NCBI GenBank assembly: GCA_019359445.1 | Contig: JAHHHJ010000002.1 | Location: 62,001-126,000, forward strand | DNA length: 64,000 nucleotides | Reading direction: 5' to 3' | Origin: Kastovskya adunca ATA6-11-RM4 | GTDB lineage: Bacteria > Cyanobacteriota > Cyanobacteriia > Cyanobacteriales > Coleofasciculaceae | In this document: positions 38,301 through 41,544 of the stretch, piece after piece | How positions within the stretch are numbered: the first letter of the stretch is position 1 | How the letters are laid out: each line of letters opens with the position of its first letter | Notes under the pieces: generated by a model | What the model saw: the letters and a program-made list of their open reading frames with translations, nothing else | What the model was told of the DNA's origin: nothing | Databases searched by the model: none | Translations under genes and position numbers: made by a program

Positions 38301-38446
38301 GAAACCTGTCGGTTTTTGAACCCACGATCCCTATTATACCTTTTCCACTGACTTTGGCAAGAAATATCTAGAAAAAACCTGAGAATCGATAAAGTAGATC
38401 TAGTACAAACGGAAGGGAATACTGCAAAAACTGTTTGCAGGCGAGC

Positions 38447-39421
38447 ATGAACCAGGTTGTTGCTACATTTTATAAATTTGTCAAACTGCCGGATTTTGCC
38501 GAGAAGAAAGAACTCCTGCTGTCTTACTGCCAACAGCAGGGCATCAAAGGGACAATCCTGCTGGCGGAAGAAGGCATTAATGGCACGATCGCGGGTTCTC
38601 GTTTAGCAATTGATGCCACCCTCGCCTTTCTGCGTGCTGATCCTCATTTAGCAGACTTAGAAGCGAAGGAGTCTTACACCACGGCTCCTCCCTTTGAGCG
38701 ACTGAAAGTCCGGTTAAAGAAGGAAATTGTCAGTCTCGGCGTCTCAGAAGCTGACCCAACCCAACAAGTAGGAACATATGTCAGTCCGCAAGAGTGGAAC
38801 GACCTGATTGACGATCCTGAGGTAGTCGTGGTTGATACCCGCAACGACTATGAGGTGAAGATTGGCACATTTAAGCGGGCAAAAAACCCGCAAACTGAAT
38901 CCTTTAGAGAATTTCCTGACTACGTTCAAAATCATCTCGACCCGACGCAACATCAAAAGGTTGCCCTCTTTTGTACGGGAGGAATTCGTTGTGAAAAAGC
39001 CACCTCCTATCTACTTAGTCAGGGGTTTGAAGAGGTGTATCACCTCAAAGGCGGAATTCTCAAATACTTAGAAACAATCCCCGCCGCAGAAAGCCTCTGG
39101 GAAGGGGAATGCTTTGTCTTTGATGAGCGCGTTGCTGTTCAGCAAGGTTTGGCAGAAGGAACATACCAACAGTGTCTCAGTTGCGGACATCCGATTTCTG
39201 AGGCTGATCAGGCTTCGCCGAAGTACGAGGAGGGGATTTCTTGCCCTGATTGTTTTGACAGCCTCACGCCGGAAAAGAAAGCGCGTCAGGAAGAGAGACA
39301 GCGGCAGAGGAGGCGGGGGAGCGGGGGAGCGGGGGAGCAGGGGAGCGGGGGAGCAGGGGAGCAGGGGAGCAGGGGAGCAGGGGAGCAGGGGAGCGGGGGA
39401 GCAGGGGAGCAGGGGAGATGA
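38447..39421 (+). CDS. trhO: tRNA uridine(34) hydroxylase TrhO (rhodanese-like), repeat-extended C-terminus
   Basis: ATG 38447 gives [20 protein letters not shown], the family start; a TTG at 38435 is less likely. An N-terminal ferredoxin-like domain (with [19 protein letters not shown]) is followed by a rhodanese domain with [15 protein letters not shown] and active-site Cys176 in [12 protein letters not shown] zinc-finger-like [10 protein letters not shown] ... CPDC block lies near 242-270. TrhO makes 5-hydroxyuridine at tRNA position 34. The native end seems lost: residues about 290-324 are a low-complexity tail (GSGGAGEQ units) encoded by an 8-bp tandem repeat that has run into the gene. 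The enzyme core should be unaffected. Confidence 0.92.
39315..39419 (+). repeat. 8-bp tandem repeat array (GGGGAGCA/GGGGAGCG)
   Basis: Twelve full units of GGGGAGCA or GGGGAGCG and one degenerate unit run through the 3' end of trhO. The AT-rich flank GAGAAAAATT plus an AT-ACG-TAGC-ATTA pattern follows. The same arrangement recurs at 43855, so the two belong to one repeat family. Confidence 0.93.
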
Positions 39422-39470: not shown

Positions 39471-41144
39471 TTATTCTCGCTTACTTACGGCGTTCTGGCT
39501 GAGATCGGGTTTTGTATTTGCTTGAGTACCTTTTCTCTCGACCATCATCACGGGAATGGCACTGCTTTCCAAAACCGCTTGCGAAACCGACCCCACCAGC
39601 ACATTTTCCCGTTGATGACCACGTTTACCGATGACGACATCAGTGACTCGACGAGCCTCCGCCACACGGACAATCTCCTCTGGTACAGTGCCCGATCGCC
39701 TCATGAATTCGTAGCGAATATCAGATAGGAACAGCTGTGTCTGTTCCCGTAATTCCTTGACGGCTTGCTCGTCTCCCACATTGTCTATATGTAAAACAAG
39801 AATCTCACCATGACTGCGTCGAGCTAGGTCAGCCGCTTTGGTCAAGACATCAGCGGCTAGTGGTGAGGTATCCACCGCTGCTAAAAATACAGGACGGCCT
39901 GTAACCGCTACTTTGGTGGGGTCTACCTCTCCCTTTTCTAGCAGTTTGGGCGCAAAGACGATAGTTGCCCAGGCTCCAAGGGGAGCTGTGGTGAGAATGG
40001 AGAGTGCAGCGATCGCTAAAATAATCTCCCCTCCTGCAATCCCTGCTGCCAGAGGTAATGCACCGATCGCCGCCTGCACCGTTGCTTTCGCCATATTTCC
40101 CGGTAGCAAAAACACCTTTTCCTTCCCAGTCCAATTGCTGCCCACAGTCGAGAGATACCAGCCGATCCCCCGTCCCACCACTAACCCAATCACCAGCAGC
40201 AGCAGACCGGGTAACAGTACATCCCCTAACACCTGAAGCTGAATGCTTGCACCCAGCAAGACAAACAAGACAATCTCTGCTACCGCCCACAGGACATCAA
40301 ACCCACCCCGAATCAATCGAGCCAGTGGAGGATCAAACTCAATTAAAAAAAATCCCATTGCCATCACGGCTAGATAGCCGGAGTAATAGGGAAACACACC
40401 TGTAAACACAACCAGAAATAGCGCCACACTGGCGGCAATGATCATGTCTTGAACGGCATTGCGCGTCCAGTTTTGCTTGACTAACAGCAACACCAGTAAT
40501 TTCGCAGCTAGAAAGCCAGCCGCCAATCCCAAACCAATTTCCAGCACCACCTGAAAGGGTAGGAGCTGCAAGGGAGATAGGCTCAGTCCACCGGGTAATT
40601 TGACTAACTCTGCACCACCTTGCCCTAGGAAGTTGAGCAGCAGAGCAAATACTAACAGCAGCAAGACATCTGACAAAGCACTCCCTGTCAAAATTGCATC
40701 GGGAATGCCTTTTGTCACGCCCCATCCGAGACTTTTGAGCCGCAACATTGCCGGAACAATTACCGCTGGTGATTCTGCCCCAACTACACAGCCCAGTAAT
40801 AGACCAGTGAGAAAGTCAAAGTTGAACATGAACATGGAGGCGATCGCTACTACCACCGCCTCTACGGACGCGGGTAAAAATCCTAACCTCAAGGCGACGG
40901 TTCCCTGCTGTGCCAGTTTCTCCCGGTCTAGTCCCAAGCCTGCTTTCATCAAAATGATCGTGACGGCGACGATTCGCAGATCATCAGCAGCGTCTAAAAC
41001 TTCAGGGGCGATCGCATTGGCAACTTGAGATCCGAGGACAATGCCGATCAAAATCATCCCAATTAGCGGTGGTGCGCCCAATCGTCGGGCAAGTTGCCCC
41101 GCAAAAAAGCCGCCCACCAAAACCCATAGCGCACTGGCTAACAT
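39471..41144 (-). CDS. Cation:proton antiporter (CPA family) with C-terminal UspA domain
   Basis: The first 400 residues form 11-13 hydrophobic helices. Conserved features are GFFAGQLARRLGAPPLIGMI at the start, ILMKAGLGLDREKL, and GCVVGAESPAVIVPAMLRL with the ion-site acidic residue. Residues about 405-545 are a universal-stress domain (VFLAAVDTSPLAADVL through VTDVVIGKRGHQRENVLVGSVS), with the G-x2-G-x9-G-S ATP-binding motif. It should exchange Na+ or K+ for protons at a membrane, with the Usp part as a nucleotide-sensing tail. A fluoride riboswitch on the same strand upstream (41249-41319) indicates that fluoride induces it, probably to counter the cytoplasmic acidification or HF entry caused by fluoride; that reason is inferred. 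Confidence 0.88.
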   Translation of the reverse strand: MLASALWVLVGGFFAGQLARRLGAPPLIGMILIGIVLGSQVANAIAPEVLDAADDLRIVAVTIILMKAGLGLDREKLAQQGTVALRLGFLPASVEAVVVAIASMFMFNFDFLTGLLLGCVVGAESPAVIVPAMLRLKSLGWGVTKGIPDAILTGSALSDVLLLLVFALLLNFLGQGGAELVKLPGGLSLSPLQLLPFQVVLEIGLGLAAGFLAAKLLVLLLVKQNWTRNAVQDMIIAASVALFLVVFTGVFPYYSGYLAVMAMGFFLIEFDPPLARLIRGGFDVLWAVAEIVLFVLLGASIQLQVLGDVLLPGLLLLVIGLVVGRGIGWYLSTVGSNWTGKEKVFLLPGNMAKATVQAAIGALPLAAGIAGGEIILAIAALSILTTAPLGAWATIVFAPKLLEKGEVDPTKVAVTGRPVFLAAVDTSPLAADVLTKAADLARRSHGEILVLHIDNVGDEQAVKELREQTQLFLSDIRYEFMRRSGTVPEEIVRVAEARRVTDVVIGKRGHQRENVLVGSVSQAVLESSAIPVMMVERKGTQANTKPDLSQNAVSKRE

Positions 41145-41214
41145 ATTTTTTCTCTCTCCTCGGTCAACTCGTTACGCATCCTGAGCGCCAGAGGAGTAAG
41201 AGAGTGATTAGACG

Positions 41215-41255
41215 AAAAACCCCCTACTCTCTGGCATACAAACCAGAACAGTAGG
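41215..41255 (-). terminator. Riboswitch-controlled intrinsic terminator
   Basis: On the minus strand CCTACTGTTCTGG pairs with CCAGAGAGTAGG around the loop TTTGTATG, followed by GGG and TTTTT. The left arm overlaps the last bases of the fluoride aptamer, so aptamer folding and terminator formation exclude each other. This is the expected arrangement of an ON switch. Confidence 0.88.
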
Positions 41256-41319
41256 AGCCATCAGCCTGAATAACTAGCGCATCAGCTAGTCTCGGCGGTT
41301 AGGGTGAACTCCATCACCC
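41249..41319 (-). ncRNA. Fluoride riboswitch (crcB motif)
   Basis: The minus strand reads GGGUGAUGGAGUUCACCC, then UAACCGCC, a hairpin (ACUAGC/GCUAGU), then GGCUGAUGGCUCCUACUG. This matches the crcB-motif consensus: a stem GGGUGA/UCACCC around AUGGAGUU, the loop nucleotides GGAG that pseudoknot with CUCC, and the conserved UGAUGGC..CUACUG 3' strand. The known Thermotoga aptamer has the same order and loop sequences. It lies 105 bases upstream of the antiporter start, on the same strand, and overlaps an intrinsic terminator. Confidence 0.94.
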
Positions 41320-41544
41320 GCTAAAAGCGATTTTCGGTGTGCCCTTTGGGCGATCGCGCTTCTCCGGTTTTCTTGAGAAACAAACGCTTTTGAGTAGAGT
41401 ATCACATCTGAAGTGTCTACAGGAGCCTGAATTGAGCCGTCTGGAGGCGAGCCAGCGATCGCTAAGACGACCGGACATTGATCAGGTAGAGCCAGATATA
41501 ACGCCTGCAAGTGAAGACAATCCTCAGGACGTAGCAGCTTATCG

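Follow-up and report, generated by a model that had tools for sequence, protein, structure and literature searches.

The window, by which we mean the whole stretch of 64,000 nucleotides that was analysed, carries on its minus strand a fluoride riboswitch followed by a gene for an antiporter-like protein with a C-terminal Usp domain. The features of this locus, in window coordinates, are as follows.

41245..41327, minus strand: fluoride riboswitch aptamer RF01734, identified by cmscan and present as a single copy in the genome
41309..41312, minus strand: GGAG strand of the pseudoknot, located in the P1 loop, from sequence and column conservation
41254..41257, minus strand: CUCC strand of the pseudoknot, shared with the left terminator arm, from sequence and column conservation
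41215..41258, minus strand: expression platform consisting of hairpin 41258-41220 and T run 41219-41215, from the fold compared with shuffles
41154..41161, minus strand: likely ribosome-binding site GAGGAGAG, located roughly 9 nt upstream of the start codon, assigned from the sequence
39471..41144, minus strand: gene for a 557-aa protein with an NHA-like cation/proton antiporter fold and a Usp domain at its C terminus, from the ORF and Pfam families PF00999 and PF00582
39936..41144, minus strand: membrane domain, residues 1-403, from an AlphaFold2 model and VIA-align
40773-40775, minus strand: ion-site residue E124 (TM4), from the ortholog alignment
40668-40673, minus strand: ion-site residues S158-D159 (TM5), from the ortholog alignment
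40170-40172, minus strand: ion-site residue R325, from the ortholog alignment
40086-40088, minus strand: ion-site residue K353, from the ortholog alignment
39540..39884, minus strand: Usp domain, residues 421-535, PF00582 with E 6.4e-16

Elsewhere in the window, a tandem array of 14 copies of the 8-base unit GCAGGGGA occupies positions 39304-39417, inside the 3' coding end of a rhodanese-like gene at 38435-39421.

A cmscan search matched window positions 41327..41245 (minus strand) to RF01734 (Fluoride, crcB motif) with a score of 49.7 bits (E 9.2e-11), the gathering score being 34. The match is full-length, covering model positions 1-64 of 64 with zero non-standard pairs marked, and lies 15.7 bits above the gathering score. 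Both complementary strands of the pseudoknot are present, GGAG at 41312-41309 and CUCC at 41257-41254 (minus strand), with their pairing predicted from the sequence, and across 54 antiporter-linked aptamers the columns holding GGAG and CUCC show either no variation or at least 90% conservation. This outcome of an Rfam covariance-model check bears out a preliminary description of the locus, which had recognized a complete crcB-type aptamer with a GGAG/CUCC pair on the minus strand. The hairpin at 41258-41220 folds with -22.0 kcal/mol compared with a mean of -8.4 (sd 2.3) for 500 mononucleotide shuffles, and a TTTTT run at 41219-41215 (minus strand) lies directly 3' of it. This hairpin was absent from the output of a simple consensus terminator scan and its assignment as a terminator therefore rests on the fold and the T run. 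Since the CUCC strand of the pseudoknot forms part of the left arm of the hairpin, pseudoknot and terminator are mutually exclusive. The overlap of the terminator with the 3' end of the aptamer is that of an ON-type expression platform, an arrangement common in this riboswitch class though not universal, and terminator-like hairpins overlapping the aptamer were detected at 34 of 55 antiporter-linked loci using a simple rule devised for this analysis. Both an intrinsic terminator taking the last part of the aptamer as its left arm and an ON-switch arrangement had been described previously and are upheld, whilst of the interval then given, 41215-41319, the low edge coincides with the end of the T run and the high edge falls 8 bases short of the 5' end of the aptamer. 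One hundred nucleotides separate the aptamer end from the antiporter start codon. The RNA match and terminator geometry of the riboswitch are established by computation, and from its sequence it probably responds to fluoride in vivo, in which case fluoride would stabilize the pseudoknot, the overlapping terminator would be blocked and the antiporter gene would be transcribed, a mechanism of transcription attenuation.

The product of the ORF at 39471-41144 matches Na_H_Exchanger (PF00999, E 6.9e-23) as well as Usp (PF00582, E 6.4e-16), in agreement with the earlier identification of the controlled gene as an antiporter with a Usp tail. These two families were the only ones returned by a Pfam scan to E 0.001, which gave no match to PF02537 (CrcB) or PF00654 (CLC). 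The nearest solved relative is NHA2/SLC9B2, with E values of 3.1e-28 by sequence and 4.1e-47 by profile. An AlphaFold2 model based on an alignment of 39 sequences reached a pLDDT of 73.4 and a pTM of 0.64, with low confidence (under 50) at residues 125-129 and 139-149, adjoining the ion site; a single-sequence AlphaFold model with a pLDDT of 38.9 was set aside in its favour. VIA-align assigned the CPA fold to the model, the best match being MjNhaP1 (Z 34.7, 369 residues, rmsd 3.1) with bison NHA2 giving Z 29.6 (359 residues, rmsd 3.9), and broken helices were observed at 111-138 and 347-366. By profile, predicted fold and the presence of two broken helices in the model, the protein is a member of the NHA-like branch of the CPA superfamily.

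In place of the DD motif that NHA2 and electrogenic CPA2 antiporters have at positions 6-7, the protein has S158-D159, with S158 found in all 98 full-length orthologs. Residues E124, R325 and K353 are likewise invariant in these orthologs, and D159 is kept in 95 of the 98, with N in the other three, all from genomes without CrcB or CLC-F. When compared with nine aligned paralogs from the same genome, ESP in TM4 and SD in TM5 are peculiar to the riboswitch-linked protein. The acid count at the ion site is unchanged, one acid having been lost in TM5 and one gained in TM4. On this alignment the ion site is rewired, with the same number of acids and hence no proof by itself of a new substrate; because the number of acids is kept, cation/proton exchange is predicted to remain compatible with the changes.

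The host genome assembly (G000; 5.09 Mb in 37 contigs, 99.99% complete) contains one RF01734 copy and 11 Na_H_Exchanger matches, counting the controlled gene and one short fragment. The statement that no crcB gene is present in the window is correct and extends to the entire genome, in which 0 CrcB matches were obtained over the 37 contigs. CLC-F also gave 0 matches at E 1e-30 with a riboswitch-linked CLC-F query. The possibility of a CLC-F acting as the real exporter from elsewhere in the genome was ruled out, as the single CLC match has a GSGVP filter, with CBS and Usp domains following its CLC domain, and is not matched by the CLC-F query at E 1e-30. Genome-wide searches likewise ruled out a further fluoride riboswitch and a crcB gene at a distance, neither being found. 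The CLC protein (L002 91-2781, minus strand), with its CBS and Usp domains, is a second host transporter carrying a Usp tail.

In a class sample of 291 cyanobacterial genomes searched with RF01734 at E 1e-3, a total of 81 matches was observed in 69 genomes. The antiporter is encoded downstream of 55 of the 73 riboswitch loci examined from these 81 matches, the window locus being counted among the 55, and the linked antiporters are 58-87% identical to the window protein. Other downstream genes at the 73 loci were CLC-F (8), CrcB (3), a lone Usp (2) and unclear genes (5). Among riboswitches above the gathering score, 54 of 63 precede the antiporter, and the view that CrcB or CLC-F genes are the usual targets does not apply to the cyanobacteria sampled. 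The distance from aptamer to start codon is 80-119 nt at 52 of the 55 antiporter loci. Related loci were also identified in named GTDB genomes, some of them possibly identical to genomes of the class sample, and a custom model (R1) detected an upstream riboswitch in 52 of the best 80 of 234 such loci, the positive genomes including Fischerella thermalis PCC 7521, Chlorogloeopsis fritschii PCC 6912 and Microcoleus vaginatus HSN003. Rfam's own model at its gathering score detected the riboswitch in 10 of 15 tested loci from these named genomes. These data indicate that the link extends beyond the host genome and that fluoride riboswitches in the sampled cyanobacteria have this antiporter as their main target.

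A search with R1 over 65 further antiporter loci in 61 genomes produced only two riboswitches that had been missed, a strong match in G257 and a weak partial match of 27.6 bits in G091. With G091 included and the loci of 8 genomes with fragmentary matches left out, a riboswitch is located directly upstream of the antiporter in 57 of 124 antiporter genomes. A tendency of the riboswitch to track exporter absence among these genomes was unsupported, with 38 of 79 positive without an exporter compared with 19 of 45 with one. At least 15 riboswitch changes are present on the antiporter tree. In each of two genomes, G186 (L050, L061, L070) and G190 (L049, L063), four fluoride riboswitch matches were obtained, not all of which reach the gathering score, and these precede CrcB and stand-alone Usp genes besides the antiporter and, in G186, also CLC-F. 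The antiporter and riboswitch were also observed in a MAG labelled Methylobacter (L242 4001-5617), likely due to a binning error.

Gene presence in the class sample was scored, fragments included, at thresholds of E 1e-20 for the antiporter, E 1e-3 for CrcB and E 1e-30 for CLC-F, giving 124, 183 and 15 genomes respectively. The antiporter only was present in 79 of the 291 genomes, an exporter (CrcB or CLC-F) only in 150, both in 45 and neither in 17, corresponding to a Fisher odds ratio of 0.065 (p 1.7e-22). As related genomes are not independent, permutation was carried out within families and within genera. The 45 genomes observed with both compare with a mean of 64.8 (sd 3.0) within families (GTDB-style) and 55.2 (sd 1.6) within genera, and the observed value was reached in 0 of 10,000 permutations in each case. 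An earlier stratified test, from which 14 unlabelled genomes with neither gene were left out, leans towards exclusion and is superseded by this fully labelled permutation. Within a single genus of 24 species (g45), seven have the antiporter only, 15 an exporter only, two neither and none both. The 17 genomes with neither, 6 of which are under 80% complete, indicate that life without the antiporter, CrcB and CLC-F is possible.

A second sample comprised 388 genomes from the host's own order and was scored for CrcB alone, such that genomes with neither may include some with CLC-F; the antiporter is present in 147 (E 1e-100 or better) and CrcB in 231. Following removal of 36 genomes common to the class sample, with the overlap taken from listings, approximately 352 new genomes consisted of 28 with both, 100 with the antiporter only, 185 with CrcB only and 39, obtained by subtraction, with neither, an odds ratio of 0.059. 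These strict counts drop 14 genomes whose antiporter matches are weak (E 9e-23 to 4e-99); their inclusion gives an odds ratio of 0.050 for the new genomes. Genera containing both antiporter-only and exporter-only species number six in the class sample and eleven in the order sample. In the host's own family, all seven genomes with the antiporter are without CrcB, 12 have CrcB without the antiporter and one (G509) has neither. The antiporter and the exporters CrcB and CLC-F are thus largely mutually exclusive in cyanobacteria, with the exclusion incomplete (both in 45 of 291), and it could reflect habitat. Amongst the weak matches, those near E 1e-49 in six genomes without CrcB (G314, G333, G350, G365, G380 and G407; family f4, genus g165) would represent a divergent form or a remnant of the antiporter, and those of E 9e-23 to 1e-72 in three genomes with CrcB (G379, G430 and G593; family f7, genus g9) are possibly gene remnants.

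Of the 45 genomes with both, 22 have an exporter gene directly downstream of the antiporter gene on the same strand, the exporter being CrcB in 18, CLC-F in three and, in G004, assigned from coordinates. CrcB genes at these shared loci often occur as a pair, with the nearest within 52 nt, and this spacing suggests that antiporter and downstream exporter are co-transcribed. An upstream riboswitch was not found in 13 of the 22 shared-locus genomes, and when these 13 with an exporter neighbour only are taken together with the 57 with a riboswitch, 70 of 124 antiporter genes are fluoride-linked at their locus. The 22 shared loci also suit an accessory role for the antiporter.

We propose that the host controls the antiporter through an ON riboswitch and that this NHA-like CPA-fold transporter, with its remodelled ion site, would provide fluoride defence in place of CrcB and CLC-F. 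The protein would most likely lower cytoplasmic fluoride directly by proton-coupled exchange, moving F- out and H+ in, with the Usp tail a putative cytosolic regulatory domain. For this account as a whole we estimate a probability of roughly 0.5. Functional substitution for an exporter, suggested by genomic complementarity, is the likelier part, since one clade after another has the antiporter instead of exporters, and it thus appears to do their job. Direct proton-coupled fluoride export is, we think, the simplest version of such a replacement, and we put fluoride as the transported substrate at slightly under even odds. To our knowledge, no CPA-fold protein is known to export fluoride. It is more tentatively suggested that the antiporter constitutes a bacterial fluoride exporter family beside Fluc and CLC-F, with a CPA fold and a rewired ion site, and that it is the only recognized fluoride-defence transporter in 79 of the 291 genomes.

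The preliminary description had suggested that the fluoride response of the organism consists in part of pH or cation homeostasis and not of export. In this scheme an ordinary Na+/H+ or K+/H+ antiporter is induced by fluoride and transports no F-; HF enters the cell and dissociates, and proton uptake reduces the pH difference responsible for trapping F-, or else cation/proton balance is repaired. Characterized relatives of the protein are Na+/H+ or cation/proton exchangers, D159 (95/98) and R325 are kept with E124 preserving the number of acids, antiporter and exporter share one locus in 22 genomes, and a section of a 2024 review that recognizes two bacterial fluoride exporter families presents riboswitch-linked Na+/H+ antiporters as pH helpers (PMC11139923). 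The similar riboswitch frequency in antiporter genomes without and with exporters (38/79 and 19/45), not clearly higher in the former, also counts against export. An accessory pH gene, however, would be expected alongside exporters or irrespective of their presence, and the exclusion holds within genera and in the second sample. Furthermore D159, at the second DD position where part of one study reports aspartate in 94% of CPA sequences (PMC6181914), is N in three exporter-less genomes. Homeostasis thus fits poorly with the exclusion, which looks like exporter replacement, and we regard it as a serious though not favoured possibility.

An ecological origin of the exclusion, in which lineages with low fluoride entry dropped CrcB, kept the antiporter for some other reason and inherited the riboswitch, appears improbable. 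The 17 genomes with neither gene, the repeated riboswitch changes on the antiporter tree (at least 15) and the finding by R1 of a riboswitch in just two of 61 antiporter genomes not already linked are all in its favour. However, the aptamer core is well conserved in the 54 antiporter-linked copies and an exporter follows the antiporter in 22 of 45 genomes with both, and the locus is therefore tied to fluoride; the coexistence of antiporter-only and exporter-only species within six class-sample and eleven order-sample genera is also contrary to this explanation. Degeneration of the riboswitch in the host, or its failure to respond to fluoride, might be argued from the terminator missing from the consensus scan output, yet is barely credible: the aptamer matches RF01734 over its full length, scores 15.7 bits more than the gathering threshold, contains both strands of the pseudoknot and is overlapped by a strong hairpin.

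If the antiporter replaces exporters as proposed, it would be the only recognized fluoride-defence transporter in 79 of the 291 sampled cyanobacteria, approximately a quarter. Should it carry fluoride, it would represent a new exporter family and a case of anion transport in a fold known for cations, and would explain how many cyanobacteria live without CrcB. Should it carry none, this would suggest that proton/cation exchange is by itself enough to stand in for an exporter.

In the literature searched, with most subscription papers lying outside the search, no report was found of an antiporter replacing, or being mutually exclusive with, CrcB and CLC-F in cyanobacteria. Links of this class have been described before, Na+/H+ antiporters being given in part of a review, citing Baker 2012, as the second most common riboswitch-linked genes after exporters (PMC11139923). 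Already known, therefore, are the riboswitch and Na+/H+ antiporters as riboswitch-associated genes, and apparently new within the literature searched is the exclusion between antiporter and exporters. The same review text describes CLC-F and Fluc as usually mutually exclusive, with approximately 3% of strains having both (PMC11139923).

The host RNA shares with the RF01734 class, as described in part of Weinberg 2010, the full-length aptamer, pseudoknot strands and overlapping terminator, whereas the crcB-motif targets named there include mutS, K+ or Cl- transport and formate hydrogen lyase genes (PMC2864571) and the host riboswitch precedes an NHA-like antiporter-Usp fusion. NHA2/SLC9B2 has in common with the host antiporter the fold and the SPAVxVP and KATVQAA stretches, and by alignment NHA2 E214 corresponds to the TM3 glutamate E95 and NHA2 R431 to R325. 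The NHA2 ion site is described, in the section concerned, as containing Asp277 and Asp278, with the Val243 backbone carbonyl taking part in sodium binding in simulations (PMC8850199); counted on the alignment, Asp278 corresponds to Asp159, whereas Asp277 is replaced by Ser158 and Val243 by E124 in the host protein, which also differs in its C-terminal Usp domain. The fluoride operon of Enterobacter cloacae FRM, given in part of its report as ppaC, uspA, eno, gpmA, crcB and orf5249 with a riboswitch upstream (PMC5533749), resembles the host locus in having an upstream fluoride riboswitch and a Usp protein in the regulon, and differs in that its Usp gene is separate, CrcB is included and none of these six genes is an antiporter-Usp fusion. 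The CrcB/Fluc and CLC-F exporters belong by Pfam to other protein families than the host antiporter, for which F- transport is only putative, and share with it riboswitch control, common loci and alternative presence across genomes.
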